From Parietichytrium sp. I65-24A (taxonomy: Eukaryota > Sar > Bigyra > Thraustochytrida > Thraustochytriidae), in contig BLSF01000013.1 in assembly GCA_012862575.1 (NCBI GenBank), positions 558,001 through 622,000 of the forward strand: a stretch of 64,000 nucleotides of DNA, in the 5' to 3' direction. The notes below the pieces were generated by a model. That model saw only the letters and a list, made by a program, of their open reading frames with translations. It had not been told where the DNA came from and ran no database searches. The translations under genes were made by a program, and so were the position numbers. Below, one piece after another: positions 9,601 to 49,990 of the stretch; positions within the stretch are counted from its first letter, which is position 1; each line of letters opens with the position of its first letter.

Positions 9601-9610
9601 CGCCGTCGTC

Positions 9611-18114: not shown

Positions 18115-18290
18115 CCGTAACCTCAGTTGTGAATCAGAAAATGATGAACAAATAGCGACAACGTGGCTTTCCAAGCGTTCGCGCCGTCACTCGTCCAACC
18201 AGTCTCCAACTTCGGAAACTAGCCAAAATTTACATTTGACCCTCGACCAAAAAGAAAGAACTTGCGCACGGTATACTCGGAGCAAATAGA

Positions 18291-18302
18291 GTACTCAGTA
18301 CT
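18291..18302. repeat. Palindrome GTACTCAGTACT
   Basis: Member of the dispersed palindrome family, about 180 bases after the PH-START stop codon. Confidence 0.65.
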
Positions 18303-18979
18303 CCACTGTGCCGTTTGCCAGACACTTGGCAAAGCACAAGCGCCCTGCCCACCCGCCCACTCCATCCAACGTTCATTTTTTACCGGTTACAATAACCCTC
18401 ACCTAGTCTATAATCTAGCCATCCAACCGCTTTGACGAGCCTATCTATCTGTTGTTGTATCGCACCATGTTGGCTGAGCTTTTCGAACAACACATTTTAT
18501 CACCAATATGGCTGCTGTCGCACGCACTGGTACACTGAGCAAACCGACTGTGAAGCACGGCGACATTTCTCGTTCTTCTTTACAGTAACGATTGACATTG
18601 GTCTTCCATTCCATCCATGCTATCCATGCTCAATGACAGTGTGCTCAACACTCACCAATCCCCACCCACTAGTCCCATCTAATTATAACATTAATCAAAT
18701 AAGCACTCTTACAGTACCCTCAGCCACCGACGACTATGCATTCCTACGTAGCAGCCCTATGCTCCTCTGAGTCTTCCTGTAAGAACTCCTACTGCTAGCG
18801 CTTTGGCGGACTTCTAGCGCCTCATCCAGCTCACCGGAAACCAATTCTTATCTAGCGCGCATCGCTAGTCGGCCTCTATCCGACCACTAGCACCACGGTA
18901 GAAAGCCTTCTAGCAATCGTCACCTATCAAACGGCGCAGAGTCTGAGAGAATATGAGAGAGAGAACGGAAGACTGAGGA

Positions 18980-19109
18980 AGCACAGAGAGACAGAGAGAC
19001 AGAGAGACAGAGAAGAGAGAGAGAATAACGTATAACGCATACCTGGTGCATTGGAGACAGAGAGACAGAGAGACAGAGAGACAGAGAGACAGAGAGACAA
19101 GACAGCACG
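18980..19109. repeat. GACAGAGA simple repeat
   Basis: Two blocks of tandem octamers GAGACAGA, purine-rich on the sense strand of the LC8 gene and ending about 330 bases before its start codon. Confidence 0.8.
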
Positions 19110-19228
19110 GGAGGGTTGTGCAGAGTGCAGAGTGCAGAGAGTGCGGAGTGCAGAGTGGAATTTGGTCGCGGCAGTTGTCAACGTGCAGTAAGTTTTGGTT
19201 GCTGCAGTGGGGCAGTGGCGTTGGTGTA

Positions 19229-19247
19229 GTTGTTGTTGTCGTCGTTG

Positions 19248-19280
<33 letters not shown>
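19229..19280. repeat. GTT/GGT trinucleotide repeat
   Basis: Tandem GTT units passing into GGT units between the purine repeat and the LC8 start codon. Confidence 0.75.
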
Positions 19281-19283
<3 letters not shown>

Positions 19284-19438
19284 CAGGGTGGGTGGGTGGC
19301 GGTGGAGGCGCAGCGGTTTGGCTTTGTGGGCGGGAAAGCGCGCGAACTGGCAAGGACGCGGGGCAGAACAGGGAAGAACGAGCGCTAACGGTGCAAGTGG
19401 GCGCAGTTGTTGTCGGTACATAGTTTGAGCGAGGGAAA

Positions 19439-19932
19439 ATGGCAGAGCGCAAGGCAGTGATCAAGAATGCAGACATGTCTGAGGACATGCAGCAGGACTG
19501 CGTGGACATAGCTTCCCAGGCGCTGGAGAAGTACAATATCGAGAAGGATGTCGCAGCGTACATCAAGAAGGAGTTTGACAAAAAGTACAACCCTACTTGG
19601 CATTGCATTGTTGGACGCAACTTTGGCAGCTACGTGACCCATGAGAGTACGTTTGTCCCGCGGCGTGGTCATATGAAATCTCCGTGTTGATACTGACTTG
19701 TGTGTCTTGTTTGCGATCCTCTCGTGCTCCTTCTTCGTGCGGGATTTCCGTGGTTATTGCAACTGAGCAGCAAAGGTGAGTTGAGCTTTCTTTTTTATTT
19801 CCTGCATTTCTTCGATACCACAGCTTGCTCTTTATGTACTGATCCGCATTTTTTTTTCACCATTTCCCTGCACAGCACTTTATCTATTTCTACCTCGGTC
19901 AAGTGGCTATTCTGTTGTTCAAGTCTGGGTAA
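19439..19932 (+). CDS. DYNLL1: Dynein light chain LC8 (DYNLL), with 5-base exon
   Basis: Three exons, 19439-19646, 19771-19775 and 19876-19932, give 89 residues, exactly the family length. The protein is near-identical to animal LC8 through the signature regions ([30 protein letters not shown], then [20 protein letters not shown]). LC8 is a dimeric hub that binds short linear motifs in many partners, dynein intermediate chain being the best known. Exon 1 ends in phase 1 with GAG-A before GTACGT. The middle exon is only CAAAG, flanked by a CAG acceptor and a GTGAGT donor, and supplies the rest of Thr plus Lys. Exon 3 follows CACAG with CAC. Introns are 124 and 100 bases. Only this splice pattern yields the invariant HETKHFIYF sequence. 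Read straight through, the protein would end 14 residues after exon 1. Confidence 0.95.
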
Positions 19933-20235
19933 TGTGCTATAAGTGCCATCTTTGATGGATGAATAAATCTATGGATGGATGGGAACACAATATCGGCGCA
20001 CTCCACGCGAATAAAGATTAGCTTTATTGTCTCAAACAATTAAAACATACTTCACCATTCAAAATTCAACCCTATTTTGGCAAGTCAGCTATACCCCTTT
20101 TCAAGCCATTGGAGGGGAGTTTTTGTTTCTTAGTATTTGGGTTCTCAATTGCCGGTACTCAAATTTACTGTTAATCGACAAGTTAAAAAAAAGAAAGAAA
20201 AAAGTACTAATGCTGAACGGATGAAAAGTAATTAT
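19933..20235. other. Convergent 3' region, LC8 / MscS-like
   Basis: About 300 AT-rich bases between two converging genes. Apart from the candidate polyadenylation signal nothing is seen. Confidence 0.6.
19962..19967 (+). terminator. Candidate polyadenylation signal AATAAA
   Basis: AATAAA 30 bases beyond the LC8 stop codon on the same strand. Confidence 0.45.
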
Positions 20236-23013
20236 TTACTGTGTTTTCTTTTCTTCTGGGGACTTGAGGATCGGATAGTACGAGCCGCTATATCGACGCT
20301 CAGTCATCGCAAAGTCAGAATGCTGATCTGTGTCTGTAGCTGGGACAGCCTTCTGATGGATAGATTCGGCAGAAACGAAGGGGTCCTCTAGCGTAACGTC
20401 TACAGGGTGTACTGGGTCTTCCTGAATGCTATAATCTGCATTCGTGGAGTGACCAAGCCGCATTGACGAATCGAGAATTGGTACCTTCAGCTCTTTGACG
20501 AAATCATTTCTAACCTGCTGCAGGTTGCTGTAATGGTCCACAGGAAATGGCACGCGGCCGAGCCCAGTCCCAGAGTAACGAACGCCATACTTGACCAACG
20601 TTTGACACAAGAAGCGCATCAAAGTGTCCTGGTCATTGAGCGTTCTGATGAGATTGTAGTTTGGATACGCGTGCTCGACATACACGACGAGCTCGCACTT
20701 CAGCGGATTGGTCCAGTTCCTGGCGTTCAGCATATACAATTTTGTAAAGCTGTCAGGGCGCGCGGAGAGCCATTCAACGAGCTCCTTGCCAAAGCTGTCC
20801 AAGAATTCATCTGTGATGCAGTCCAAGTCTACGGCGATCTTTTGAATGAGGCCTTTATTTTCGGACGTTGAATAATTGAAAATGGGGACCATGTCCCAGA
20901 TATGCCGATTCTCCATGAGCGTCACGCTTCCGTCCCATCTCAGTAATTCTGTGGAGTAGAGGTGGATACGTCGTACCTCGTAGCGCTCCTGAGTGGGCCC
21001 AAGTTCGATGTTGTCACCTACATCGTAAGGGTGGACCGCAAAGAGGAACACGAGGCACTCGAACGCGACGCGCACAGAGGATCCAAATACGAAAGACCAA
21101 GCCAGCAATGCTCCGCTAAGGCCGACCCAGAGCTCGATGACATCAACTTTGTACAGGGCTAGGGAGATCATCGCCAAGATGATCACAAAAGCGGCCATGA
21201 TAAAGACATCGAGGCTATGCAGAACTGATCGGGAATCTTGCAATGTGATCGATATATTTCGCCGGCCTTTGAACATGAGGTGGAGCATGATATTGAAACG
21301 CTTTAAGGTTGTGTAGCCAGTGTTCGAGGGATCAAGCAACTGAGTCCAAAGCATTTCCCCGTTCACGCTCAAATTACCATAGTACTCTTCCACGAGAGGA
21401 ATGAAATCTTTCTTGCGAATTCTTCGGCGATCGACCTTCTTGCGCCGATCACTAGTTCCGCGAATGGAGCCCGTAAAAAGTCCACCCTTCCGCGACTCTG
21501 GATTGGATTCATTGCCTGTTACACTCGAGACCACGCTCTTCGACTCGGACATGTGGAAACTCTGGCGCAACTTGGCAAGCCTCGTTGGCTCTTTCTGGGG
21601 GGCAGGCTTTCCTCCGGAATCTTCGTTGCTGTCCTCCCAGTTTTCAAGCGCAGCGGTGAGATCAGATCCCGATAACGTGCGCTTGGGCCGGCTTTTAAGA
21701 GCTTTGTTTACAGCCCGGCGAGCTTCGCAAAAGGCGTAAAGACGGTCAAACATTCGGCTGGCAATCCTCTTCGACTGAACGGAAGAAAAGGCGTCCATTT
21801 CTTCTTGTGGAGACGATTGCGCATGTTTAATGCCATCCGCAAGCTCGGTACCGTCAACATGATGGGTGTTGATGTACCTTGTGAGGTGTTGCCAGGTTCG
21901 TGGGTCGAACTTTGCCATCTTGTTCGGGTTTCGAGAGGTATCTGGCTGTGCCGTGCGTACGTCAGATGAGTTGTCCTTTATTTGATCGGTCGTTACGACC
22001 TCTGTTACTGCAGTCTGAGGTGTGGTGTACGAAGACAAATCTAGCTTGTCAAACAGGACACGAAACCACGGATTGTGGGGCTTATTGAGAAGCGTGCTGA
22101 TGATATGTTCATAATACATCGTTTGCGTTACTCGTTCGTGGTACGCACGAGTATTGAAAGTTTGCGAGAAATGAATCCGAAGAGCAGTCGTTGTGGCACG
22201 GGCGAGGAATAGGAGCATTAAAATACTGAAGATGCGACTCAAATTGAAGATCGCCAATTGCCAGTTCTCTCCTTGGACGGACTTGCTTGGAGAAAGCGTC
22301 AAGACCACGACAATGCAGAGCAAACTCCACAGCGCTTGCTCGCACGAAGCCCTTGTCGCTGAGATATAGAACAAAAATGTGGAGATCCTTCTTGACCGCG
22401 ACTTGCTTGAGGAGTGTCGCAGGAGCCCATTGCAAATTGCAAACACGATGCGGATCAGAAGTCCACTGAGATACCCACAGCAAGCTATCGTGCCGGCAAC
22501 CAGGAACGCGCGAGATGCATGAATGTTTGGAACCACAAATGCAAAGACAAGCCCCGCAGATATAAAACAAAGCCCAAAGATGAACAGCGCGATGCGAAAC
22601 GGAGTTCCAACACACCACATGCACCAAATTCGGTTGGGTGGGATCTCGTCGATCACAAAGTTGTCATCATCATCGTGATCGTTGTCTTCCGCTTCGCTAT
22701 CGTACGCGGAATTGTCAGATAACAACGTGCTCTCCCGCCTCTTCTCTACCAGCCCTCGCAAACTCCCACGGCTCCGTCGATCAGAAGGTGACCGCAGATT
22801 GTGCCCCATCGACGTCCCATATTCGCTCAGCGCCGACAGCAAGGACCCTTGCCTCGAGTTCTCCGAGCCGATGTTAAGCGCCACCGAATCGCCTTCGCTG
22901 GCGGCAACTTCCGTTCTGCTTTGCTCCTCCCCCCGAGACTCATTCCCGGCCCCACTCGCACTTCCCCGACGCTTCACGCTCCGGCTCGCCGCACCTCCGA
23001 ACGGCCACTTCAT
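20236..23013 (-). CDS. MscS-like mechanosensitive channel with EF-hand-like region
   Basis: A 925-residue membrane protein of the MSL/Msy group. An acidic, Ser-rich cytosolic N terminus precedes several membrane spans (CVGTPFRIALFIFGLCFISAGLVFAFVV; FLVAGTIACCGYLSGLLIRIVFAI; ALWSLLCIVVVLTLS; IFSILMLLFLARATTTAL). A long cytosolic loop follows. The conserved pore part lies at about 595-670 (VFIMAAFVIILAMISLALY; LWVGLSGALLAWSFVFG; ECLVFLFAVHPYDVGDNI), and a beta domain follows with YSTELLRWDGS and NYSTSENKG. Just before the pore is an EF-hand-like stretch (LLDPSNTGYTTLKRFN, about 560), as in fungal ER channels Msy1/Msy2 that respond to swelling and Ca2+. Family role: tension-gated ion release during osmotic down-shock. 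The first ATG is at 23013; two further codons upstream lack an ATG. Membrane location (plasma, ER, vacuole) is not evident. Confidence 0.9.
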   Translation of the reverse strand: MKWPFGGAASRSVKRRGSASGAGNESRGEEQSRTEVAASEGDSVALNIGSENSRQGSLLSALSEYGTSMGHNLRSPSDRRSRGSLRGLVEKRRESTLLSDNSAYDSEAEDNDHDDDDNFVIDEIPPNRIWCMWCVGTPFRIALFIFGLCFISAGLVFAFVVPNIHASRAFLVAGTIACCGYLSGLLIRIVFAICNGLLRHSSSKSRSRRISTFLFYISATRASCEQALWSLLCIVVVLTLSPSKSVQGENWQLAIFNLSRIFSILMLLFLARATTTALRIHFSQTFNTRAYHERVTQTMYYEHIISTLLNKPHNPWFRVLFDKLDLSSYTTPQTAVTEVVTTDQIKDNSSDVRTAQPDTSRNPNKMAKFDPRTWQHLTRYINTHHVDGTELADGIKHAQSSPQEEMDAFSSVQSKRIASRMFDRLYAFCEARRAVNKALKSRPKRTLSGSDLTAALENWEDSNEDSGGKPAPQKEPTRLAKLRQSFHMSESKSVVSSVTGNESNPESRKGGLFTGSIRGTSDRRKKVDRRRIRKKDFIPLVEEYYGNLSVNGEMLWTQLLDPSNTGYTTLKRFNIMLHLMFKGRRNISITLQDSRSVLHSLDVFIMAAFVIILAMISLALYKVDVIELWVGLSGALLAWSFVFGSSVRVAFECLVFLFAVHPYDVGDNIELGPTQERYEVRRIHLYSTELLRWDGSVTLMENRHIWDMVPIFNYSTSENKGLIQKIAVDLDCITDEFLDSFGKELVEWLSARPDSFTKLYMLNARNWTNPLKCELVVYVEHAYPNYNLIRTLNDQDTLMRFLCQTLVKYGVRYSGTGLGRVPFPVDHYSNLQQVRNDFVKELKVPILDSSMRLGHSTNADYSIQEDPVHPVDVTLEDPFVSAESIHQKAVPATDTDQHSDFAMTERRYSGSYYPILKSPEEKKTQ

Positions 23014-25447: not shown

Positions 25448-27177
25448 TAAACAAACTACACAGCCTCAAGCTAAGAGAGCACACGCCGCATATTCCAACC
25501 TGCCTGACTTGCCTGACAGTGAAAAATCCTCCTTCCAACAGTCGTTCTCAGGGCACGCAACGATCAGTCTGATCCCCAAAGGTAACGACTGGCCAAACTT
25601 TGAGTGAAATAAGGGCACTGGGTACAGTACTCACTGGCAGAACACCACATTTGAACAAAACAATTAAGGATCTTTCTCCAAGGTGAACTGATTGTAAAGT
25701 GAATTTCAAGAGATCTGATAGTGCGAGCCACACAGCCTATCTTGTCAGAGCCACGGTAGCAGAGAGACAAGCAAGTTCTAGCTAGCCTAGCCAAGCAATT
25801 ATTTCATCGGTTTCGACATTTCTTCGGGATCTTTGGACAGACGCGCTTGCCCGAATTACCTGTATTCGATAGAAGCGGGCTGTTCCTCGCCGATGTCAGC
25901 TGTCCAGTGTTGTTCCTGCAGGGCGGAGAGATAAACCAGCATCCTCATTCAACTTGGAAGTGTGTCACACTCTGCAACGTTCTTCTTGTTAACTTTTAAC
26001 TTGATGAGAGGAAAATTGAGTTTATGTCCCGCTCGAGAAACCAACCAACTGCCTCTGCATCCTACGTCCCAGCCTCTCTGATAAGCTTATGCTTTGCGAT
26101 GCCATAAAAAAACTCACTTTCGCCAGCAAACCTGGACTTACCGGTACTGTTAAAAGGAAACACAGTTGACCGACTGGAAATATAGAGCGACGGTCCTCAA
26201 AGAGAAACACTAAACTTAGCGGAGTCGAGAGGCTCGGGAAATTCCGCCTCGTATGCAGAAACACAGCTGCTTCATTTTTTGCTACAACAAAACTCTACAA
26301 ACTTGAACAGTTGAGAGCTGAGCGGAGTTGACACTTTCGGTGGGCAGCTTGACAGCGTCTAGTTCGAATAGATTTAGGGTGTAGGGGGGTGGAAAGGGGG
26401 TTACCAAGTTGCTTGCCTTTCAAAGCGGCGAGGGGGTTTGCCTCTTCCTCTTCCTCTTCCGATGCCATTTACCTTTGCCATTTGCCATTGGTTTCGAATC
26501 CTTAAATTGCTTAAATTAATTTTCTTTCTACGTCGTGCGCCACATTATGAAGCGTTGATGATGATGATGATAGATGTGGAGCGAGCGGTCCCCGACTAGT
26601 TTCCTATAGTTTCCCATATTTCCCCGGCGCTCCCTCGCCGAGACCTGTAGGACCATTAAGCTCTTTCACTAATGTTCGGCGTGCGCCAATTTTGCACTTT
26701 GCATTTTCCTTCCGCACACCACGCTACGGAAGCGCCTAGAACCTACTATCACAACCTCGGGGCTCTCGGGGCGCCTAGCGTGCACTCAAAGAGAGAAGTC
26801 CTAGTACCCCGCCCTAGGACCCCGTACCGCCCTCGCTCGAGTAGCTCATTGGCTAAGGTCTTGCTTATCCGTTTCGGTAGTACCCCAGGCTGGTGCACAT
26901 GTGGCAAGAGTGGCAAGAGTGGAAGATGTGCAGAGCAAGATGGCAGAGACACGAGCGGTAGTGGTTGGCTACGGCGGAGTAGAAGAGGCGAAGGGCGAAA
27001 TTGAAAATAGTTGAAACATGAATGTGATTGGCTGAATTGGTCGGAGTGTGATCTTTGGGAAACGTTGTAAGCTGAAGTCACCTGGAGATTGTGTGAAGGT
27101 GCAAGTGAGTGGAAAAGAGAGGCAAAGCAAACCAGAAACGCTCAAGTGACGAGAAAGAGTGCAGCAAGGATCGAGAA

Positions 27178-27903
27178 ATGAAGTACATCAGCGAAGCGCT
27201 GGTGGTGGCCGCGCTCGTGTGCAACGCAGACGGGAAGAGGAGCTGGGTGAGCCGCTTCCCCAACGGGGCGTCGTTCAAACAGCTGGGGCACACGAACAAG
27301 AACTTGCCTGCGGTGGATGCTTTCGGAGCAGACTACGCGAGCAATGGCCGGGCCTGGGACCTTGCCTTGTGCCAGAAGGACAGCGATGGAGATGGTTTCT
27401 CGAACGGCGCGGAGCTAGGGGATCCAGATTGTGTCTCTGTCTCTGGCGGAACCCCTCCTACCACCGCGAGCCTTGGTGACCCTGGAGCAGCGGGCATCAC
27501 CCCAGCGCCTGCAGCAGCGCCAGTCACTACACCAACAACTGCCGCTGGAACACCAACGACTCCTGTGGTAGCCCCAACATTGGCAACTGGAGGTGATGAT
27601 GACGATGACGACGATGACGATGACAACACAGAGACCGGCACCGGCAGCACTTCTGGAAGTGGGTCAACGACATCATCAGGCAGTGACAGCTCGAGCTCTG
27701 ATAGCTCTGGAGGCGTCAATCCTTTGATTATCGCTGCAGGCGCAGCTGGAGCGTTTGTCGTCGGGGCAGCTGTATTCGTGCGCCAGAATAACGCAAGAAG
27801 GCAAGCTCAGATTAATAAGGAGTACGCCGGAACGGTTCAGATGGCCACTCCTGCCTATGGCAGTTACGTCCCTGGACCTAACGGCAAGTCGATTCCATTG
27901 TGA
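27178..27903 (+). CDS. Temptin-like cysteine domain membrane protein
   Basis: 241 residues. An N-terminal signal-like segment (MKYISEALVVAALVCNADG) is followed by a temptin-type domain at about 25-90 (RFPNGASF...LGHTN...DAFGADYASNGRAWDLALCQKDSDGDGFSNGAELGDPDC). This domain carries the paired Cys and the DSDGDGxxNGxELGDP calcium-binding-like loop of temptin, a protein first known from sea-hare attractants and widespread in marine microbes. Next come a Pro/Thr/Ala-rich stalk, a run of ten Asp, a Ser/Gly-rich stretch, a membrane span (PLIIAAGAAGAFVVGAAVFV, about 181-200) and a short cytosolic tail. I infer a cell-surface protein with a glycosylated stalk. The ATG at 27178 is chosen because it begins the signal peptide; the frame extends 23 charged codons upstream to another ATG at 27109. 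It converges with the Ca2+ exchanger gene only 118 bases away. Confidence 0.78.
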   Translation: MKYISEALVVAALVCNADGKRSWVSRFPNGASFKQLGHTNKNLPAVDAFGADYASNGRAWDLALCQKDSDGDGFSNGAELGDPDCVSVSGGTPPTTASLGDPGAAGITPAPAAAPVTTPTTAAGTPTTPVVAPTLATGGDDDDDDDDDDNTETGTGSTSGSGSTTSSGSDSSSSDSSGGVNPLIIAAGAAGAFVVGAAVFVRQNNARRQAQINKEYAGTVQMATPAYGSYVPGPNGKSIPL

Positions 27904-37881: not shown

Positions 37882-38740
37882 GGAAGCGAAAGCGTAGGCG
37901 GTGGGGCGTAGGGGAGGCGGTAGATGGAGGCTAGGAGCTGCACAGCTGCACTGAGTGGTGGCTCTTGGGAGAGACGGAGGGATTAGATAGATATGAGTAG
38001 ATTGGTTGTGAGTGAGAAACTGAGAAACTGAGAGAGACTGAGAGAGACTGAAAATGAGAGAGGATTGACGCGTTTCTCCGCAGTGCTACTGCAGGGTAGA
38101 CCATTGCTACGACTGACCTTAGCGAGGGAGGGTAGGCCGCCGGTAGGGGTTTGGTTTGCGTGAGGTGGTGCTAGTCGGGGGAGTTACGCTGTAGGGTAGG
38201 CCCACGGCAGCCATAGGAGTCAGCCAGCTGCGGGTAGGAACAGGGAATGGGTAGTAGGAGAATAGGAAGTGCTACCCTGCCGTGGTGAGGCGAGTGGACG
38301 GCTGCGACTGCTAGGGGTTTTAAATGAGTGAAGGGTATCGCAAGAGGGAACAAGAGAAGGCTCGCTGCTTGTGAGAGGAGAGCAGACGGTGCGGCGCCCT
38401 GACCGAACCTAACCCATGGGAGCAGTAAGATGGCCGTAGTGGAGAACAAGAGGAACACAGCGACGGACGAGTTGCGTAACGATGGCCCCTCTGTTGGTGT
38501 GATTTGGTTTGGTTTGGTTTGCAGAAGCATTTGTTTCTTGCTCAGAAGAGTTGCATTGCAAGATCAATCATACTATAGAACCGGACTTGCAATGAGAAAT
38601 GGAGCTGAGGTTTCATCGTGTAGTTAAGAAATCTGAGATTTTTTTGGTTGACAATGAAGGTACTGATAGCCTCTGTTTTATTGTTTTAATAATTAATTAA
38701 ACAAACCCCAGAAAAGGGAAATGAAAACTGAAATACTATC

Positions 38741-38764
38741 ATGCACATGCACATGCACATGCAC
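38741..38764. repeat. ATGCAC hexamer repeat
   Basis: Four tandem copies of ATGCAC, 15 bases beyond the stop codon of the receptor gene. Confidence 0.85.
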
Positions 38765-38778
38765 AAGATGTGCTCTGT

Positions 38779-40875
38779 TCAGTTGGTTTTATGATTAAAA
38801 AGGCGTACGACGGAGGATGATGAGGGCAGTTTTGGGGCTGTGAACGTGAAACCGGCTCGATTCTTATGCTCCTCGGAAGACTCAGAGGACGGCATTTCTA
38901 TCGCGACGGTTCCCTCCGTGGCTTCAGACTCGTCTTCGGCGAATGGGGGGAGCATTTTGTGCTTGTGGCGGTCCACATACATGTTCATTAAGTTGAACAG
39001 AAATATCGCGAGAGGAGATCCAATCTCCACACTGTGTACTTCTTTTCCAAGATTCTTGGGGATGACATGAGAGAATTGCGCCTGGAAAACAGCTGGTAGC
39101 TTTTCCTGGAGAATCGATGGGAGACTCGAGAGTTCATTTGCAATCTCCTCTTCAAAATCGAACCCCTCAACATGAAGTAAGAGAACTGGCTGATTGCCCT
39201 GCTCCGCCAAGATTAAGGTTTCCTGGACGTCCGGTGATGCAAGCACCCCTTTGGTGAGTATCAGCAAAAGTGCCGCGCAGTCAGCCTGCTCTAGATCAGA
39301 GACGTCGTTCTCCGTATGAAGGGCGGTGGACTGGTGCCCAAACCTCAACGCCTCGCACACCTCCGCAGCGACTTGATATGCCTCCTTGTTGTCGAAGTCA
39401 TGACTGACGTAATAGTGAAATCTTTTGCCTTCCGGGAGACTCGACCTCTGTTTCACTGCGTCTATCTTGCGCTTCAGTAGAAACCCGCCTACAGCGAGAG
39501 AAACAAGCGCGAAGAGAACGCTTGGAACAATAAGGCCTGCGCCAGGACGAGGTCGATTGATGAGTTCGTCGTTGCTGGAAGTGCTCCAGGGAACCTTACC
39601 TGTCGCAACAAACCCTCCAGGGACAGCGTACAGGGATACCTCAGAGCTCACGCGAACGACGTCCGGGACTTGTGCGCCTAAAGTGCTGTTTCCCACTCCG
39701 ATGAGAGACCCTCCAGCAGAGAAGAGCACAAATGCATCGTCCCCTGTGCTGACCTTCGTTATTTCACCACGGAGTTTGATTTTGTTGTATTTGAGTTCTC
39801 CCTCATCAATATAGACCTGGGTTCCCTCTCCATAGCTCAGAATAGCGAGTATAGATCCACGGACTGCGTAGGCTCTGATAACCCGTTCTAAAAAGCACTG
39901 TATGCCTCCCCAACACATCATTTGCTCCGCAAAGACGGCGCAAAACGCGTCCTTGCTAGCTACTAAATCGACCACAGGTTGACCAACGACACTCGGGGGC
40001 AGTGCGCCTCCGTAGGACGGGTCTCCAAAGCAGCGCACACCAGTGGCGGGACAAAGTATACAGAGAGCCTCGTCCGAGGCTTTGATGACGGAATTAGAGA
40101 TGTCGCAACTTTTCTCCTCTTCCAGTGTGGCCAAACCTGGAGCCGATGACAAGCTCCCGATGAACGCAAAGCCCCCGCCCTTCAGAATTGAGGCGCACGA
40201 ATAATCGTTGCACACCAGTGTATCTGAGGACAGCAGGCTGAGTGAGAAAGACTCTCTGGAAGTCTTGCAGAGTGATTGATCTCCAACGCAGCCCAAGAGA
40301 CCCCCACTTTCATCGAAAACTAAAAATGTGTCTCCGATGCCACGCAATCCGTGAGCAGATTCAAACTCTAAATGACTCGAAAGCGTTCTCTCTTTTGTAA
40401 CGCCAAATGAGAAAACTGTTCCATTCCTACTCGCAAGTGCGAAAGCAGTGCCGTTGGTGGCTATTCCAGTGAAGCCTGATACTCCATGCTGCACGAGTTT
40501 CTCCGCCAACTCCGACGAACCAGTACCCCAGGCTACCACTTCCCCAGACTTTCTCAGAGCGAGCATCATCTCATCACCTGCCGCAACGTCCACTACATCA
40601 TGCAATCTGTCAGCGACATCGGAGGACGCTCCCCCGTGAAGAGCAGAGCCAAAAGTATACACGACGCCGCTCTGCGTCGGCGACTCTGCGATTACCGCAA
40701 ATGCGTTGCCGTTCCCCACGACTTTGGCAATCGCATGGTCCCGGAGCTCCACCAGCTCGTTCGACCCTTCCTCAAAGCTCGCGTCGAACGAGCCCCACGC
40801 CCATGCTCGAGAAGCCCCGCCGCACCGTGTACAGGCCAGCAGCGCCACGATGGCCATGGCCCTCTTGCGCCACAT
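38779..40875 (-). CDS. Predicted receptor: RCC1-like ectodomain, membrane span, TIR-like tail
   Basis: 698 residues. A signal peptide (about 1-26, MAIVALLACTRCGGASRAWA) leads into a beta-propeller-like region at about 27-430. Its RCC1-type repeats read VYTFGSALHGGAS...VVDVAAGDEMMLALRKSGEVVAWGTG and TGIATNGTAFALASRNGTVFSFG; later ones are Cys-rich, as in the ectodomain of plant CRINKLY4 kinases. One hydrophobic span (GLIVPSVLFALVSLAVGGFLL, 447-467) ends in KRK, a stop-transfer signal. The cytosolic part at about 485-610 looks like a TIR fold: FHYYVSHDFDNKEA as strand A, then ADCAALLLILTKGVLASPDVQETL and NQPVLLLHVE as strands D and E. Glu552 sits where TIR NAD-cleaving enzymes have their catalytic Glu. 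An acidic Ser-rich tail follows. I infer single-pass surface or vesicle signalling. The TIR call is by pattern only. Confidence 0.7.
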   Translation of the reverse strand: MWRKRAMAIVALLACTRCGGASRAWAWGSFDASFEEGSNELVELRDHAIAKVVGNGNAFAVIAESPTQSGVVYTFGSALHGGASSDVADRLHDVVDVAAGDEMMLALRKSGEVVAWGTGSSELAEKLVQHGVSGFTGIATNGTAFALASRNGTVFSFGVTKERTLSSHLEFESAHGLRGIGDTFLVFDESGGLLGCVGDQSLCKTSRESFSLSLLSSDTLVCNDYSCASILKGGGFAFIGSLSSAPGLATLEEEKSCDISNSVIKASDEALCILCPATGVRCFGDPSYGGALPPSVVGQPVVDLVASKDAFCAVFAEQMMCWGGIQCFLERVIRAYAVRGSILAILSYGEGTQVYIDEGELKYNKIKLRGEITKVSTGDDAFVLFSAGGSLIGVGNSTLGAQVPDVVRVSSEVSLYAVPGGFVATGKVPWSTSSNDELINRPRPGAGLIVPSVLFALVSLAVGGFLLKRKIDAVKQRSSLPEGKRFHYYVSHDFDNKEAYQVAAEVCEALRFGHQSTALHTENDVSDLEQADCAALLLILTKGVLASPDVQETLILAEQGNQPVLLLHVEGFDFEEEIANELSSLPSILQEKLPAVFQAQFSHVIPKNLGKEVHSVEIGSPLAIFLFNLMNMYVDRHKHKMLPPFAEDESEATEGTVAIEMPSSESSEEHKNRAGFTFTAPKLPSSSSVVRLFNHKTN

Positions 40876-42157
40876 CCTGTCACTTCACTTCAATCTGTCT
40901 GCTCCAAACCGCTCTCTGCCGCGCCTCTCTGTTCACAATTCACAATTCGCAGTTCACAATTTACAATTCACAATTCACCATTCACCATTCACAATTCACA
41001 TTCAGGTTTTGCCGTCATCCTGGATCACGTGGCGCATGCTTTAGTACCCACTTTCAGTACCGTACTTAGTATTCCATTAATGGCTAATTAATAGTACCTA
41101 CCTACATACCCACTCTGCCACAATCACGGCAGCTTTAAATAATAGGTACTCGTAACTAGGAGCATAGATTGTGTACTAGTACCGTACCGTCCGAACTGGT
41201 ACACGGCCAGGGTTCAATAGAACCTTAGTAGTGCTAAGCCTGTGGAGGAGTAATGGAGTTTAGTGGAAACGTAGTGAAGGGCAACTCAAACTTTGGCCAA
41301 GATCGATTTTGAGATTGAGTAAGTCTGTCAGATCGTCGTGCATGAAGAAAGAGAGACTCACTTTACTACAGTTGGTGCATCATCATCTATGGCTGTTTTT
41401 TTTTTTAAAGAACACAAAGAAAGAGAATTCTGTCTGTTGGGAGGCAGGATGGCCTGGGTTCCTCAGTTCCAGCGCGCGAGAAAAAACGCCGAGCCCAGAG
41501 TGGTGAGCACCCATAGAGAATCTCAGCGAGACAGGTATGTGGTCGCAAAGTTCAACAGCTGACTTACGTACCGGCAAACGTACTAAGTTACTTGTATTTC
41601 ATTCTTTGATGGAAGTTCACTGGGTGTAGTGGCGATTGGCGATTCATCGGAATTCGGTTTTCTTCTCACCATTTATCTTCACCTGAAAGACCTGAAAGGC
41701 ACAATCAATCACCAACGCACGAGCCAATTCAATGAAAGGGCGCGACTAGAATGGTTTACCAACCAACTTTACAGAATTAAGGGGTGTGCGAAATAAGAGT
41801 CAGTTAATTTATACTTTAGTAGTGGAAGCTTTGCATCGAAACAGGAAGTGTGCATGGCTGACTCTGTGAGTGAGAGTATTAATCCTTGACAGTGAGCCAC
41901 ACGAGGGATCGTACTGACTACGAGTACGTGTACCGACACGAGTGACACGAGCAGGCGAACGATACGGAGGGCGCCGTAAGCTTAGTTGGGGGGCTGACTG
42001 GGCTGACCACCAATGCCAATCAAGAGCCACGAGCCAATAGATGACCGCTCGCAGGTGATAGTGGCCAGGATAAGAGAGGAAACAACTCGTCTAGCTAGTT
42101 CAAGAGAATTAGAAAATATTTAGGCAATTACATCATGACCATCATGGCGGAGATCTT
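40876..42157. other. Intergenic region upstream of the receptor gene
   Basis: 1.3 kb with CACAATTCA-type repeats (40932-41003), several GTAC cores at 41040-41200, and AT-rich remainder. No gene seen. Confidence 0.55.
40932..41003. repeat. TTCACAATTCACA imperfect repeat
   Basis: Seven or so imperfect tandem copies of a 7-10-base unit ending in ATTCAC, 57 bases upstream of the receptor start codon. Confidence 0.75.
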
Positions 42158-45100
42158 TCAAGTCGTGCTCTTAGAAACGCTCTTGCTCTTCTCTCGCTTC
42201 TCCTCCAGCATTCTGATCTCTGCTCGACAGCGCCTCTCTTCAAAATAGCCGTGCATGCGGGTCAAATGTGGCTTGAGTTGCTCAAGCATCGCAATCTCTC
42301 CTCGAAGCACTCCGAGCTCCATAAGAGCAATGCACTTGAGTGTTGAGATTTCAAATTGGTGGGCCTCCTCGGCGCACTGCTCAAGCAAACTCTTGACTTT
42401 GGAGCTATACTTTTGGCCCTTGGTTCTATAAAAAACCGCGGCGCAATATTTAGCGTACGGACGGCAAGGCTCATAGCAGTCTGCATAGAGTTCGACAATC
42501 TCCAAAAGCTCTTGCAACAAGCTAACGCAATTCTTTCGCGTTGAAGCCGCGGAGGGCACTTTTTTCCACGCGGCGTTTCCTTTGTAGGCCGCGCTGCTCT
42601 TCTTCTTACGAGGTTTATCGGTGCGATTCGCCTCGGAGGATCTTCGTGATTTTCGAATTGGGAAACGGAAGTTCGGATTGCGCTCATTCCGCCTCAGCCG
42701 ATCAGCTTCTGCCGGAGTTCCAGGCTCACTACTCTCCGCGCCAACGCTAGAGCGGTGACTCCTGCTAATACGGCTATATGACTCGCTGAGTCTGCTCTGA
42801 AGGCCAAGACGTGGAGATGCGATACCGTCATCTGTCATTCCTGACGAGCCAGAATTCTCGTTGGAGTCCACATACTCAGAGAATGACTCCATAAAGATCC
42901 GAAAGATCAGTATCAGCATGTGAAAGCGGCGAATTGGCAAGTGGTCGTAGTTGTGGCCTTTCGCGATGGAAGCTCCCACTTTGCTGAGTAAAAGAGCGGT
43001 GTCTTTATGTCCATACCTTCTTAAAATTAGCAGCGCAAGCACACCAACACCATCCGGTTCCTCTAGCTCAGCAGCCATCACGCAAATCTCGTGAAGTTGC
43101 TCTGCATAAGCGTTCCCAGGATCCGCAGTGCTGCGAAGAAAATCCAACGGAGCTTCAAGAAGCTGCTCCAAGTAAGCGATTGCTACACCATAATTGGCAG
43201 CGCACACCTCTACGTATGCACAGAGGCAATTGACGTGAAAGATCCCGACTCCATCTTGGAAAAGACTGCGTGAGAGCGAAACAACCGGATAGCGCGTGTC
43301 TCTACCTCGCATCAGCTCTAGCGTCACGTGCGTCTCCAAGCTCTCCAGTTTATCGCGATGAAATTGCAAAAAGTTGAAGATCCACGTGGACTTTGTCAAA
43401 AAGTCGCTTGCCTCGTCAAACCCGCCTGCTAGCAGCATGTACTCGCCCAAAAGGATCGCGATTTTCCCTTTTGCCCCGCTACCGCGGACCTGGTCAAGAA
43501 GCTCCAGAGTCTTCTCGTTATAATCCATCGCAATCTCCTTGGCCCACTCCTTGCTCATCCCAACGTAAAAGAGGCACGCCGAAGCGTAACACAGTGCCAG
43601 CTGATCCAGCGAGGCAGCCATGGGGTCCAAAGACCTGCTTTCAATTTTATTGTCGTTGAGATCGAGGATTACACTTGCCTTGCGATTTTGCAACTGCCGA
43701 GCCCTCCGACCTTTCGATGAAGGCCTCGAAGCATCTTCGCGCTTCAAAGAACATTCGTACGCAACTTTAGCGAGAGTCATTGCGTTGAGCCTGCGCTCCA
43801 AACCCACCGGAGACGTTTGGTCGAAAATGATAGAGCCAAGGAGGCCGTACACTCGTGAACCCTCAAGTAGTGCTTCCACATTCGAGTCGCAGCCCTGGAC
43901 AGTTTTAAACTCGGGCAGATTTTCGACTTTTCTATATGCGTTCAAATTTCGCTGCACCTCGGCTTGCCTGGTCCTCTGATTCCGCTTTCTGGATTTCTCT
44001 TTGAACAACTTCTTAAAAAAACCCAGCGGCCCGGACTCAGATGCGTCTTCCATAGAATCCAGGTCCTCTAGGAATTTGACACCTTTACTGCGTCCAATGA
44101 ATGGACTGGGCGGACCGCCAACACCCCTCGCGCCGGCCCCGCCGCCCTGGTGGTTCCGCATAAATGCTTTGCGGTTCAGGCTGCGATCAGCAGTAGAATT
44201 CATCGTGACCTCCCGGCCAGACTGAAAAGACGACTCCTGATGCTTTAAGAGCTTCGTGTGGTTGGCCTTTTGAATCGCATCACTGAGCCTGCCTCCTAAA
44301 CCTCCCTTCTCGCCTTTGCGCCGCCCGTCTGCAGCAGTGGACACTGGTGCCTCTGTATGAAAAGAGCCAGGGCCCTCGCTCTCGTTCCGATGCATGGGGT
44401 TCTGCGACGAGCGAGCTCCCGCGCCATTTTTGGGGGCCTCAACGCCCTCCGCCTCATCGCCATGAAAGTACTTTGCAAGCCAACTCCTCCTCCGCGGCTT
44501 GGCAACCTGCTCTTGACTTCCGTGCGGCTGACCAAGAACACTCACGTCAAGGTCGAGAGCTTCGAGCGCAGCCCGGAGGTACTCTTCCGCGGCCTGGGAC
44601 AGCCCAAAGAATAGATAAGCCTCTCCAACTTTCCTGAACCAACTGGCCTGGTGCCACGGTTCAACTCTTACTTTGGCCTGCCGACTGACGTTGATCAGAC
44701 GCGTGAAACAGAGCCACACTGCTTGCATAGAGTGCAACTCCAGAGCATCGTCTCCCGCCACCTCGAGGTAATACATGGCACGCTCGTGTGATTCTGCGCT
44801 AAAGTAGTGATTGGCAAGCCGGAGGTAGACGGGCTGCAAATAGTCCTCGTATTTCTTTTCGTAGAATTCCGCCACTGTAATGTGAAGCGATTTGCGCATT
44901 TTAAAGAGCAGCAAATTGTAAGCCGATTCTCGCAACATGACACTCGAGAATCGTATGACGTTTTCACCATTTGCATCAGTCTCAGACACAAGGAATCCCC
45001 GTTGCACGAGGCTTGCAATATGCTCATTTAGTAGCTTTGAGATTTCGCGCAAATCTCCAACCGCAGCAGCAGCCGGTGTGGACGCGCCACCCCCTTTCGA

Positions 45101-48100
45101 TGTTCGACCGGAGCGTTTCTGCTTCGGCCGCTCGTGCGGCTCGTCGTCACCTTGCAAAGCGCGAACCGTGGCTTGCGGGTTAATACTCGCCCGGCTACTC
45201 TTCGCCAGGCTCATCTTGGAACTAAGAGCTTTTTCTTGGATTTTCTTCTTGTGATCAGGTCGGTCGTCTTCGAGAATGGCTTCCTCGTTTTCTTCGGCGC
45301 CCGTGTAGCTTAACAACACCGAAGCCAACACGTGCATTTGAAACTCATTCCCGATCACTGCGGCCACCTTGAGAGTGAGCTGCTGTGAGCCAGGAATTCG
45401 GTCTATGCGAGACGTCATGAGCGCAGACACCGTACTGGGCAACCCAAAATCGTCACCTTGGGCCTCCTTAGAAAGCACGCACACACCGTTCTCAACCTTA
45501 TACACTTTGTCCTCCGTCATAAGCTTGAAAAGCTCTTCTGCAAAAAACGGGTGGCCTTGGCTCTTGTCATAGACCACACTCACAAGCCTTGGGGGGATAC
45601 TGTCTGCGCCGATCCACAGTTTTAGACACTCCTGGATCTCTTGCAGGTTGAGTGGCTGCAAGTTGACTTTTGTGGTCATCGACTGTGAGCAAATTTTCTG
45701 GAACCAGTCCACAAGAACTTCTCCAGCTGGGGGTGTCTCTACGGTGGGCATGAGCCTCTGGGAAGGCAACCCAAACATCATGTTTTCGCGACAGGTGAGC
45801 ATAAGCGCGATAGGCTCGCCGCGCTCCGTGAGGCGATAGAGAGCCTCCACCGAGTAGGGATCTGCCCATTGCAGGTCCTCCACAATAATAAAGATGCGAA
45901 TCACGTTGTTGTTCTTGTCGATGTCATTGGCGGTTACATCAAAGTAATCTTGGGCGTGCTCCAAGTCTTTTGCGGCTTTGGAGAAGATCTCCACGATTAA
46001 CCGAAGCAAGTTCACCAAAAATACTTCCGAGTCGGCAGCATCTTTGGTGGTGTCGCTCGCCCCGCCAAGCTTGAAGAAATCGGGGAGGACCTTTCGCAGG
46101 AGCGGGAACAAGTCGCGCAAGCCTTTGTTCACCTCTACATCGAGCCCATCATCACCGAGCTCACCAGAGTCGATACTTTCCCTTGCCCTGCGCGGTTTGT
46201 GCCTGTGCTCGTCGCCGCTGTCACTATCATGGCCGTTTTCACTCTCATCAAAGCTCTCTGAATTACTATCACGCGGCCCGCTCACGAGACCCATGGAGTC
46301 TAGATGGGGAATACGGCTCTCCAAAATCCGCATTCGCTCGCTGTCTGTCAGGCGAGATAGCTTGGTGCTCCCCACAAAGTATTGCAGCACTTGAGGCACG
46401 ATCGACTTCCACAAGAAAAAAGGCGTGTGGGTTTCGGTGTCGTCACCACGCGCAATAAGCGTCAAGAACGGTCGGCTTTTGGCTTTGCTGAGAGCGTATT
46501 GGCAGAGCCTCGTCTTGCCGAGTCCAGCGTCACCAGTAACAACCAACGTCCCTGGGTGAGGCGAGAAGGGATCTAGCACGTTGCGAAGCAAACGCTTTAC
46601 CATGGACTCTTCCTTACTTCTTCCTACTTGACGGGTTTTGATCTGCTGGTCTATCGAGATGACGAGCTTTTGCTGCTTTGGCCGATACACCTCCACGGTA
46701 TCTACTTTGCCTTTGATTCCAATGTGCTTGGATGCGTGGTAGCTAATGTACTTTCTGGACTCCCTAAAGGTCTGCTTATCGCATAAAATATTTTTCTTGG
46801 CTGCGACCATCAAGCGAGCCGCCATATTGACCTTCACACCATGGAGAGTGTATTCGCAACGCAGCTGCCCACCAACGGTTCCACAAAACACCTCTCCAGT
46901 GGTGATCCCAATCGAGCACCCTACTTTCCACTTTTGACGGTCTTTCCGGAGCTCCTCGAGCTCCTCGAGGATCATCATGGCCGCCTTCACGGCGCGCACA
47001 GAATCGTTTTCATGCTTTTGGGGCGGTAACCCAAACGCAGTGAGCACACCAGCGCCCTTGTCGTCGACAATAAACCGAAGCAAGGTGCCCTCATAAGCAA
47101 GAATGTGCTTGTGCACGATCGTAAACGAGTCCTGAATGGTGTTGATGTCTGACTCTTTACCTTCGTATCGCAACCCTAAGAGCTTGCAAAACACTGTTGA
47201 GCACACGCGCAGCTCTCCACTCCAAATCCCGTTTCCAGAGTCGATCGACACGAGGGCTGGCGACGGAACGTAACAACATAAGGTGTCCTGAAGCCGCTTG
47301 TACTGCAGGGGGTCTTTCGAAGTGAAAGACTTCATCTCCGCAAACACCAACTCACGATTAGGGAAGACTGGTGCGTCAGATTCGAAGCCTTTAAGTAAGA
47401 AATTGCCACTAGGGAGCACTTGGCCGCGCATCATGTCACCGATGAGCTCATACGTTTGCTTGGAAACGACTGTTTGTCCCGCCTCAGCCTCGGGCTCGGC
47501 GCTTCCAATCTGCTCCACGGGCGAGCCGGTCACGACGTACTCCCACCGATCGTTCAAACCACCAACGTGATAACTAACAATGGTCCCGCACCCCACTCCA
47601 CAGTGCACAGATAGTTTAATCGCCGAGACGCTATCCCGCCTCGAATGCCGTGACATCTTGTCCTTTTTGGAGCCCTTTCCTCCTCCACGCGAGTTAATAG
47701 CATCTTCCTCGAAAATATTTTTCTTTGACCGCCCAGCCACTCGAAAGTCGTAAGAGACTAGTTCCATGGCCACCTGGCTTGCGCAGAGAGTGGCCATTTC
47801 TAGTGAACGTTCGAAGGTCTCCGAGGGGAACACAGCAAGAATTGCGTCACCAGCAAATTTGATCACATCCCCGCCCTTGTTCGCGATCGTCGCCACCATC
47901 TGCTCAAGAGATGCTCCGATGTAACGAGACAAATTCTCCGCGGCATAGGCGACGTGCTTGATTTCCTTCACTAGGCGTTCTGCCAGGGCCGAAAAGCCGC
48001 TGATATCCGCGAACAGAACTGCAGCCTGAAATCGCTCCGAGAAGACCCGCTTGGACATCTTCGAGCTGCGCATGTGATGGCGAATTATCCTCGCCGGAAC

Positions 48101-48652
48101 CAAACTCGCGAGGAGCTCCAGCCTATTAATCTCCAGCTCCAGGGCCAGGTCGCTCTTCAGCCCCTCCAAATACTCTTGGCACGACTCAGCGTCAAGCGCA
48201 AAGTTCTCCGTGGTGCTGGTCACCTCGCCATCGTTACTCAGCTGCCTCCGCGACGCGTCCGAGTTCTGGCTCGAGTCGCTCACACGTTGATACTGTCTGC
48301 TGGATGCCTTCTTCTCCCCGGCCTGTGCCTCTGCCAGCCCGCCCTGCTGCTTGCCCGCGTCAGAGTTCTCCCGAACCATCTGTGCTCTGCGCCCCTGCGC
48401 CCCCTGCTGTCCTAGCACCTGCTTGGACGTGGACCCGAACTGCCGACCACCTACGCGCAAACTCCCGAACAGTCGCGCCTGACCATCCATCTGGTTACCG
48501 TACATGTACGTGCCGCGTGGCACACCATCGCGTACACCGCCCTCCAAGTCTTCCCCTGGCGGAGACTTTTTGCGTCCCGCGCGGCTGCTGTGGCCATTGC
48601 CATTGCCATTGCCATTGCTATTGCTATTGCGGTTGCTCGCCCGCGTGCTCAT
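42158..48652 (-). CDS. Soluble adenylyl cyclase-like (ADCY10-type) protein
   Basis: A 2164-residue protein with the layout of animal soluble adenylyl cyclase. Cyclase domain C1 (about 205-420) has the two metal-binding aspartates, Asp216 in LFADISGFSAL and Asp269 in IKFAGDAILAVF. C2 follows at about 465-650 (FIVDDKGAGVLTAFGLPP; CSIGITTGEVFCGTVGG; EYTLHGVKVNMAARLM). A STAND-like NTPase has Walker A GDAGLGKTRL at about 707 and a Walker B-like IIVEDLQWADP at about 920. The long C-terminal half is helical and TPR-like. The family makes cAMP from ATP and is stimulated by bicarbonate and Ca2+. Lys265 matches the Lys that binds bicarbonate in the human enzyme, but the partnering Arg appears to be Gly in YVVTGSPVEQIGS. 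The first ATG is 48652; six upstream codons lack one. An Asn-Ser-Gly repeat follows the start. No membrane spans. Confidence 0.92.
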   Translation of the reverse strand: MSTRASNRNSNSNGNGNGNGHSSRAGRKKSPPGEDLEGGVRDGVPRGTYMYGNQMDGQARLFGSLRVGGRQFGSTSKQVLGQQGAQGRRAQMVRENSDAGKQQGGLAEAQAGEKKASSRQYQRVSDSSQNSDASRRQLSNDGEVTSTTENFALDAESCQEYLEGLKSDLALELEINRLELLASLVPARIIRHHMRSSKMSKRVFSERFQAAVLFADISGFSALAERLVKEIKHVAYAAENLSRYIGASLEQMVATIANKGGDVIKFAGDAILAVFPSETFERSLEMATLCASQVAMELVSYDFRVAGRSKKNIFEEDAINSRGGGKGSKKDKMSRHSRRDSVSAIKLSVHCGVGCGTIVSYHVGGLNDRWEYVVTGSPVEQIGSAEPEAEAGQTVVSKQTYELIGDMMRGQVLPSGNFLLKGFESDAPVFPNRELVFAEMKSFTSKDPLQYKRLQDTLCCYVPSPALVSIDSGNGIWSGELRVCSTVFCKLLGLRYEGKESDINTIQDSFTIVHKHILAYEGTLLRFIVDDKGAGVLTAFGLPPQKHENDSVRAVKAAMMILEELEELRKDRQKWKVGCSIGITTGEVFCGTVGGQLRCEYTLHGVKVNMAARLMVAAKKNILCDKQTFRESRKYISYHASKHIGIKGKVDTVEVYRPKQQKLVISIDQQIKTRQVGRSKEESMVKRLLRNVLDPFSPHPGTLVVTGDAGLGKTRLCQYALSKAKSRPFLTLIARGDDTETHTPFFLWKSIVPQVLQYFVGSTKLSRLTDSERMRILESRIPHLDSMGLVSGPRDSNSESFDESENGHDSDSGDEHRHKPRRARESIDSGELGDDGLDVEVNKGLRDLFPLLRKVLPDFFKLGGASDTTKDAADSEVFLVNLLRLIVEIFSKAAKDLEHAQDYFDVTANDIDKNNNVIRIFIIVEDLQWADPYSVEALYRLTERGEPIALMLTCRENMMFGLPSQRLMPTVETPPAGEVLVDWFQKICSQSMTTKVNLQPLNLQEIQECLKLWIGADSIPPRLVSVVYDKSQGHPFFAEELFKLMTEDKVYKVENGVCVLSKEAQGDDFGLPSTVSALMTSRIDRIPGSQQLTLKVAAVIGNEFQMHVLASVLLSYTGAEENEEAILEDDRPDHKKKIQEKALSSKMSLAKSSRASINPQATVRALQGDDEPHERPKQKRSGRTSKGGGASTPAAAAVGDLREISKLLNEHIASLVQRGFLVSETDANGENVIRFSSVMLRESAYNLLLFKMRKSLHITVAEFYEKKYEDYLQPVYLRLANHYFSAESHERAMYYLEVAGDDALELHSMQAVWLCFTRLINVSRQAKVRVEPWHQASWFRKVGEAYLFFGLSQAAEEYLRAALEALDLDVSVLGQPHGSQEQVAKPRRRSWLAKYFHGDEAEGVEAPKNGAGARSSQNPMHRNESEGPGSFHTEAPVSTAADGRRKGEKGGLGGRLSDAIQKANHTKLLKHQESSFQSGREVTMNSTADRSLNRKAFMRNHQGGGAGARGVGGPPSPFIGRSKGVKFLEDLDSMEDASESGPLGFFKKLFKEKSRKRNQRTRQAEVQRNLNAYRKVENLPEFKTVQGCDSNVEALLEGSRVYGLLGSIIFDQTSPVGLERRLNAMTLAKVAYECSLKREDASRPSSKGRRARQLQNRKASVILDLNDNKIESRSLDPMAASLDQLALCYASACLFYVGMSKEWAKEIAMDYNEKTLELLDQVRGSGAKGKIAILLGEYMLLAGGFDEASDFLTKSTWIFNFLQFHRDKLESLETHVTLELMRGRDTRYPVVSLSRSLFQDGVGIFHVNCLCAYVEVCAANYGVAIAYLEQLLEAPLDFLRSTADPGNAYAEQLHEICVMAAELEEPDGVGVLALLILRRYGHKDTALLLSKVGASIAKGHNYDHLPIRRFHMLILIFRIFMESFSEYVDSNENSGSSGMTDDGIASPRLGLQSRLSESYSRISRSHRSSVGAESSEPGTPAEADRLRRNERNPNFRFPIRKSRRSSEANRTDKPRKKKSSAAYKGNAAWKKVPSAASTRKNCVSLLQELLEIVELYADCYEPCRPYAKYCAAVFYRTKGQKYSSKVKSLLEQCAEEAHQFEISTLKCIALMELGVLRGEIAMLEQLKPHLTRMHGYFEERRCRAEIRMLEEKREKSKSVSKSTT

Positions 48653-49990
48653 CTTGCCTACACTGTCCAATGTCGAACGTCAGTCCCCTCTAAGGGGTGC
48701 GCGAGGACAGGACAGAACAGGAGAGTAGAGGGGAGTAGATGAGAGTAGATGGGGAAGGGCGCACCATCCACTTTAACACTGTCCCTATCCCCGCCCACTG
48801 CCCAATGCCCACTGCCCACTGCCCGTCTCCTTGGAGCCTTGTACACCGCGAAATTCCACAGGTGCGCGCACCCTCGTCCTCGTCCTCGCTTTTGCTTTTG
48901 CTTTTGCTTTTGCTTCCGCGCACGTAAACGACTCTGCCTCTCTCTCTCTCAAGCTCAAGCTTAAGCTCGGGAGTAGTGACTGGTAGCGAGCGACGCGGTT
49001 TCTTCGCCGAGGACTCCCGCGAGGCTCTGCGGGGACCTCCTCGGGAGAAGGAAGGAGAGTGGGAGACCAAGTGTGAGTGACCGCGGTCTTCCCCGGCCGG
49101 CTAGCGCTTACCTTAAGACCGCCGTAGCGTCATGGGTTCTCCCAGAGGAGTGCACGGGAGCGCTATCTGGGAGTAGGTGAGGACTATCATAGCTGTTGTA
49201 GACCTATGCGTTAGGGTGAGTGGGGGGTACAAGGGGTGCGAAGAAAGAGGCGGGAACTAGACTTTACAGTAGACGGCCCTAAGAGGTGGCCACGAGGAAA
49301 GTGTGCACGCTTAGGCGGACGTGGTAGAGTTAATAAGAGTCTAGCTAGTTTGCTAACTTATTGCCCGATTAATTAGAGAGACTGTAGTAGAGTAGAGGTT
49401 GGGTCATCGTGGAGGTACCAGTTCTAGTACCATACATAGGTGCGCTGACTACTGTACCGGTACTCTGAGAAGGTTCAACTTTAGCTGTACTGAGTATAGT
49501 ACAGTGGAAAAAACCTCTTGTGTCTTGTGCAGCAAAATGACGAAGAAGAAAACAGTTCAGGAAAGGTGCGTGGCTTGAAATTTGTAAATTGCTTCGGGAC
49601 TGAATGGAAACAGCAGCTGTTGCCGAAACCGGACTCGTATGTGCTGGTAACTCAGGAGACCTTGTGAAGCGGAGACTTCATACGCTCACCGTATGTGCCA
49701 AATGCAGAATCCCGTCAAAATTTCGGTCACTTTCAGCTCTTTAGACAAGGCTCGAGGCTCTCTAGAGAATCGAGAGGAGACCAGGCCTAGAGAGCGAACG
49801 AGGGATTGCGGATTGTTTCGCGGCTGGCTTGACCTAAAGCTAGATCCGATGTTTTTGAATTCGAGATGCGCAGTATGGTTTTGTGGGGAATGGGGCATTG
49901 CGTGCCACTAGGTAATGAAAACAGGAAAGTAAGTCGATCACCTCCAGAGGTTCGCGAGAGTAAGATTCGTATTTATAAGCACTGTCTGAC
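48653..49990. other. Intergenic region upstream of the cyclase gene
   Basis: 1.3 kb. Near the cyclase: CCCACTGCC repeats (48790-48830), TTTTGC repeats (48890-48915) and a CT tract (48935-48952). Further out: AT-richer DNA with a GTAC palindrome (49487). No gene is convincing. Confidence 0.55.
49487..49502. repeat. Palindrome-like GTACTGAGTATAGTAC
   Basis: Variant member of the dispersed GTAC palindrome family with flanking GTACCGGTAC 30 bases earlier. Confidence 0.55.

Follow-up and report, generated by a model that had tools for sequence, protein, structure and literature searches.

In a 64,000-nucleotide stretch of DNA from the thraustochytrid Parietichytrium sp. I65-24A (hereafter the window), we identified a gene whose product is best read, with moderate confidence, as a single-pass receptor, i.e., with an RCC1-like ectodomain outside and a diverged cytosolic TIR tail that has neither the catalytic Glu nor a WxD motif and would signal by assembly. 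The window lies within contig C13 of the genome searched here (42.5 Mb, 172 contigs), and a second gene with a receptor-like layout and a related tail was found on another contig, C39 (L059).

An uninterrupted reading frame of 698 codons

The gene occupies positions 38779 to 40875 on the reverse strand, as a sequence-only reading of the window had placed it, and consists of one uninterrupted open reading frame (ORF) of 698 amino acids without stops. In 200 base shuffles of positions 38001 to 42000, the longest stop-free run reached 287 codons. The GC content at the three codon positions was 0.587, 0.445, and 0.564, with the lowest value at position 2, as in five other ORFs compared; the highest value was at position 1, whereas in the five other ORFs it was at position 3. 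The frame could in principle be an artefact of gene modelling or assembly, through fusion of separate RCC1 and TIR genes or a missed intron, and by our reading of two split frames, introns are apparently present in some genes of the window. However, all parts of the protein are carried on the one 698-codon frame, and the same layout recurs in L059 at a separate locus, so that we regard such an artefact as highly improbable. Immediately upstream of the gene start, at positions 40930 to 41010, short near-repeats resembling ACAATTCAC were seen by eye to follow each other in a row.

The ectodomain consists of degenerate RCC1-like repeats

The protein starts with MWRKRAMAIVALLACTRCGGASRAWA, which by reading resembles a signal peptide (residues 1 to 26; 40798 to 40875, reverse strand), with a WRKR n-region, a short hydrophobic core (hydropathy peak 1.19), and an AWA/W cleavage-like site. 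The ectodomain follows (residues 27 to 436; 39568 to 40797, reverse strand) and contains about ten degenerate units of approximately 40 residues, counted by eye, and three N-glycosylation sequons. Its RCC1-like nature, which had been proposed from the repeat pattern, was borne out by Pfam, in which RCC1_2 scored 23.6 bits in the protein (cut-off 22), and by profile comparison with aligned RCC1-like proteins encoded in this genome (L002, L003, and L005). In the latter, residues 42 to 324 (39904 to 40752, reverse strand) gave an hhalign probability of 97.1, and a second alignment, extending to residue 424, gave 88.0, compared to a maximum of 6.4 among 60 shuffles. The partial match to the RCC1-like domain WD40_RLD (35.1 bits) was far below its cut-off of 150. 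No leucine-rich repeats (LRRs) were detected in the protein by Pfam at E≤10, the only matches being of RCC1 type together with a sub-threshold SIS_2. A sequence search of the PDB with the ectodomain returned HERC, RCC1, SRM1, and RCC1-repeat chains, with the best match at E 2.9e-5 over residues 93 to 122. A strict HMM built from 13 clean RCC1-like units scored the window protein at 10.4 bits (E 0.02), close to the best shuffle (9.3 bits), and the repeats are therefore degenerate; the full-length profile comparison was far stronger than the strict repeat HMM.

Hydropathy points to a single membrane span

One segment stood out in the Kyte-Doolittle profile of the protein, residues 449 to 467 (39475 to 39531, reverse strand), with a hydropathy of 2.39 against 1.35 for the next best segment. 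It is followed by a basic stretch, KRKIDAVKQR (residues 468 to 477; 39445 to 39474, reverse strand), which reads as a stop-transfer sequence, and the single-pass topology proposed earlier is supported. Hydropathy, the basic flank, and the homology of the tail described below together predict the Toll-like receptor topology, with one span and a cytosolic TIR. We consider the window protein to be probably a type I single-pass membrane protein, a judgment made jointly with those on the RCC1-like ectodomain and on a Glu-less, diverged TIR tail that signals by assembly.

The cytosolic tail is related to a TIR subfamily of the same genome

The tail comprises a divergent TIR-like core (residues 483 to 572; 39160 to 39429, reverse strand), with a box-1-like FHYYVSH, no WxD motif, and a BB-loop region that looks shortened, followed by a C-terminal extension (residues 573 to 698; 38782 to 39159, reverse strand) with an acidic and Ser-rich end that matches no domain. 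By itself, the tail matched no Pfam family at E≤10, the curated Pfam TIR model included, and the gene was missing from the genome-wide list of TIR_2 matches. NCBIfam gave no match for the whole protein, and the one weak match of the tail in PADLOC was to a non-TIR model, PD-T4-6 (13.7 bits, E 0.0065).

A different picture emerged from searches within the genome. Three candidates were scored when the genome was searched with the tail, namely, the gene itself, L010 (C28:138703; E 5.1e-4), and L011 (C3:105110; E 0.0039), and both non-self matches coincide with TIR_2 matches. The reverse search with L010 found the window gene at E 1.5e-4, and the nine non-self matches of L010 comprised seven TIR_2 places, the window gene, and L059. 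An HMM built from eight same-genome TIR rows, of which two are nearly identical and which include L010 and L011, themselves found through their likeness to the tail, scored the tail at 31.8 bits, compared to 9.5 bits for the best of 5000 shuffles. When L010 and L011 were left out, the score fell to 13.9 bits (E 0.012; best shuffle 11.6), so that the profile homology of the tail to the TIR superfamily was weak in this HMM. The tail alone was also compared by hhalign with 12 TIR rows, none of them found by searching with the tail and L010 and L011 not among them: seven bacterial or phage-contig rows and five same-genome rows, a subgroup selected by eye for being the most tail-like in the TIR_2 list. 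This gave a probability of 92.6, whereas none of 46 control pieces from eight other ORFs of the window exceeded 1.3. The probability was 1.5 with the bacterial and phage-contig rows alone and 2.9 with eight other same-genome TIRs, and the tail is therefore related to TIRs through one subfamily of this genome and not to TIRs at large.

Searches of known structures and of viral sequences added little. With the tail, phmmer against the PDB returned only Integrator subunit 3 chains (E 1.6 to 1.8, not significant), and a search with the four divergent tails (those of the window protein, L010, L011, and L059) gave a single match, to a TIR protein, that was likewise not significant (E 0.86). Many TIRs were matched when an alignment designated A1 was used, but A1 contains five canonical TIR rows, and these matches are therefore uninformative on the tail alone. 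Viral contigs searched with the whole window protein and with L010 yielded nothing informative. Structure prediction of the tail gave poor models: from its single sequence, the mean pLDDT was 46.0, and with six bacterial TIR rows supplied, the mean pLDDT was 48.7 and the elements followed an alternating alpha/beta order. In Foldseek, the best match of the latter model was the MyD88 TIR (E 0.010), ahead of a Bacillus cereus TIR (E 0.038); since TIR rows had been fed into the model, this ranking lends weak support to a TIR fold.

Could the tail instead be another Rossmann- or flavodoxin-like domain, its likeness to TIRs reflecting a common alpha/beta pattern? Such a reading would fit the failure of the tail to match any family by itself, as well as the Foldseek results, in which no match fell under E 0.001 and the two TIRs were closely trailed by folds of the adenylyltransferase, PurE, SIS, and receiver types. 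It is at odds with the genome-wide matches, which fell on TIR places and not on other alpha/beta proteins, with the hhalign comparison and its control (92.6 against 1.3), and with the two TIRs at the top of the Foldseek ranking, although the model had been given TIR rows, and we consider it improbable. The TIR assignment of the sequence-only reading, made from the pattern of strands and helices, thus stands as far as homology to same-genome TIR proteins goes, while neither Pfam on the tail itself nor a confident structure bears it out. Together, these comparisons support the reading of the cytosolic tail as a very divergent TIR.

The tail lacks the catalytic Glu

Glu552 had been put forward as the catalytic residue of a possible NAD-cleaving tail. 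Glu was present in the same column in all 12 canonical TIR rows in each of three MAFFT modes, and we take this column to be that of the catalytic Glu (alpha-C helix) of NAD-cleaving TIRs. In the window protein (Glu552 and Thr553; 39217 to 39222, reverse strand), the column is occupied by Thr553, and Glu552 lies one residue earlier; likewise, in hhalign, the Glu of the same-genome TIRs aligned with Thr553, and the residue before that Glu with Glu552. The other divergent tails had Lys (L010), Gln (L011), and Asp (L059) in this column in the three MAFFT modes. At the W position of WxD, the window tail has Ala and L059 a gap, and L010 and L011 retain the W. Because Thr553, not Glu, sits in the catalytic column, NADase activity of the tail is judged unlikely from its sequence. 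A tail that still cleaves or cyclises NAD through Glu552 after a slip of one residue would account for the Glu found one residue ahead of the column in both the window tail and L010. However, whichever of the three alignment modes is used, the four divergent tails have T, K, Q, and D in that column, and in the window tail the W of WxD has been replaced and the BB-loop region looks shortened, which makes a catalytic receptor decidedly improbable.

A related tail is found below a different ectodomain

The genome-wide TIR_2 list held 38 matches, 37 of them over the cut-off and several in ORFs of 700 to 1500 amino acids. We read 24 of the 38, which lie in 21 ORFs, and hydrophobic segments of at least 1.7 were present in two of these ORFs (C1 and C29). 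An ORF on C4 was considered as a third receptor and rejected, as no span was visible by eye in the 150 codons preceding its TIR.

L010 encodes 235 amino acids (L010:1327-2031), with a strong span (hydropathy 3.03) right ahead of a TIR that matched TIR_2 over the cut-off (34.1 bits). Inspection by eye of about 1.3 kb upstream revealed no ectodomain. Its other matches were a sub-threshold NudE in NCBIfam (17.5 bits, cut-off 169) and a weak ThsB in PADLOC (17.9 bits). L011 scored 26.8 bits for TIR_2 as read (cut-off 28) and 30.6 bits in the genome scan.

L059 (C39:290700-293100) has the layout of a receptor: a signal-peptide-like start and a 400-residue ectodomain, then a PT-rich linker leading to a span of hydropathy 2.04 and a TIR-like tail. 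Its frame is 669 amino acids long, of which 655 were read, with about 14 codons extending past the stretch analysed. All its Pfam matches were sub-threshold, namely, ThsB_TIR (15.8 bits with the tail alone, cut-off 21.2), PT, and FG-GAP_2 (11.9 bits, cut-off 23), so that the ectodomain is FG-GAP-like by eye only, and no NCBIfam model was matched. The L059 tail scored 96.4 against the five same-genome TIRs, 83.6 against the mixed set, 74.7 against the window tail, and 0.5 against the bacterial and phage-contig rows alone. The direct blastp comparison of the two tails gave only E 0.35. The L059 span and tail had eight non-self matches in the genome, all at TIR_2 places and one below E 0.001; the window gene was not among them. 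The L059 ectodomain is unrelated to RCC1 (profile probability 0.2), matched nothing else in the genome at E≤0.001, and returned one PDB match (E 0.43).

L059 and L010 thus resemble the window protein in that their TIR-like tails come after a span and lack the catalytic Glu, and differ from it in the non-RCC1 ectodomain of L059 and the lack of a visible ectodomain in L010. This suggests one type of tail joined to exchangeable ectodomains.

Comparison with known receptors and possible mode of signaling

Plant CRINKLY4 receptor kinases combine an RCC1/crinkly-type propeller ectodomain with one span, as the window protein does, and have a kinase where the window protein has its TIR-like tail. Toll-like receptors of animals and choanoflagellates (LRR-span-TIR) share with the window protein, as read here, a signal peptide, a repeat ectodomain, one span, and a cytosolic TIR, but the window protein has RCC1-like repeats instead of LRRs and a tail that is missed by the Pfam TIR models. 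According to the sections consulted of one survey (PMC6040629), the LRR-span-TIR arrangement was unique to choanozoans in its data set, only animals and choanoflagellates had the receptor form, in which a TIR is combined with a repeat ectodomain and a span, and the tails of Toll-like receptors act through TIR-TIR interaction.

The excerpts available of a 2026 preprint (PMC13142454) sort eukaryotic TIRs into 13 clades, six of which are eukaryote-only and uncharacterised, and describe Dictyostelium discoideum TirE (DDB_G0278125) as combining RCC1 repeats with two TIRs that are diverged and missed by Pfam. By this description, TirE is like the window protein in joining RCC1 repeats to a Pfam-missed, diverged TIR, and it is unlike it in that its two TIRs are in tandem and that the same excerpts mention no span or signal peptide. 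The sequence-only reading had regarded the RCC1-TIR receptor as a candidate new architecture; RCC1 together with a TIR is, going by these excerpts, already in print, and it is of the RCC1-span-TIR receptor that we found no recognisable description in the literature searched, a statement about that literature and not about all that is in print. The combination of RCC1 with a diverged TIR is thus known, and the apparent novelty is its single-pass receptor form.

If the window protein is a receptor, its propeller-type RCC1-like ectodomain would face the outside or a vesicle lumen and bind a ligand or another surface. Ligand-bound or clustered ectodomains would bring the pseudo-TIR tails together, and the assembled tails could then recruit or dock cytosolic TIR proteins, which are numerous in this genome, much as Toll receptors do. 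We infer its localisation, ligand binding, assembly, and partners, and signaling would most likely proceed through non-enzymatic TIR-TIR assembly or docking of cytosolic TIRs, not through NAD cleavage.

The protein might also serve in adhesion, or in the sorting of cargo within endomembranes, with the tail a leftover without a signaling role. The genome does encode RCC1-like single-span proteins with short tails, L002 and L003, both of which have a signal-peptide-like start, RCC1_2 repeats, and one span and are without a TIR tail, and the window tail is badly eroded. On the other hand, the tail has kept its frame and its hydrophobic core positions, and the second receptor-like gene has kept a similar tail, and we consider this explanation unlikely. 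In the reading that we prefer, a receptor signaling by assembly, the window protein would be a test case of a receptor TIR that lost its enzyme activity and in which assembly has been kept. A receptor of this plan with RCC1-like repeats outside, in a genome rich in cytosolic TIRs, would also point to more than one origin of the Toll plan, each time with different parts for sensing.

More tentatively, the genes described here may be part of the protist's own set of Toll-like receptors, independent of those of animals, in which one non-enzymatic pseudo-TIR tail and a single span are combined with interchangeable ectodomains, RCC1-like in the window protein and of an unrelated kind in L059, and signals pass through the many cytosolic TIRs of the same genome, at least some of which keep the catalytic Glu. 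This is a real possibility to which we give somewhat less than even weight.

The host and other genes

The sequence-only reading had spoken of related algal genomes. Light-harvesting protein (PF00504) and PsbO (PF01716) had no match in the genome, and a Synechococcus control was matched in both searches. Because these two photosynthesis markers are absent, the algal label is unsupported, and the host is probably a non-photosynthetic eukaryote.

A search of the genome with a PfaA model gave 13 matches, none over the cut-off. On contig C66, at approximately 8500 to 22500, one N-terminal part of the PfaA model was matched by four stretches of a 5583-amino-acid open frame and another part by three, again none over the cut-off; probably, this frame encodes a large modular polyketide or fatty-acid synthase. 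Within the window, a 2170-amino-acid ORF at positions 42158 to 48670 (reverse strand) matched class III cyclase in two stretches and the AAA_16 ATPase, with a weak match to TPR, an arrangement that we take to resemble soluble adenylyl cyclases. Finally, a 264-amino-acid ORF at positions 27109 to 27903 (forward strand) carries a Temptin C-terminal domain and, by eye, a C-terminal hydrophobic segment.
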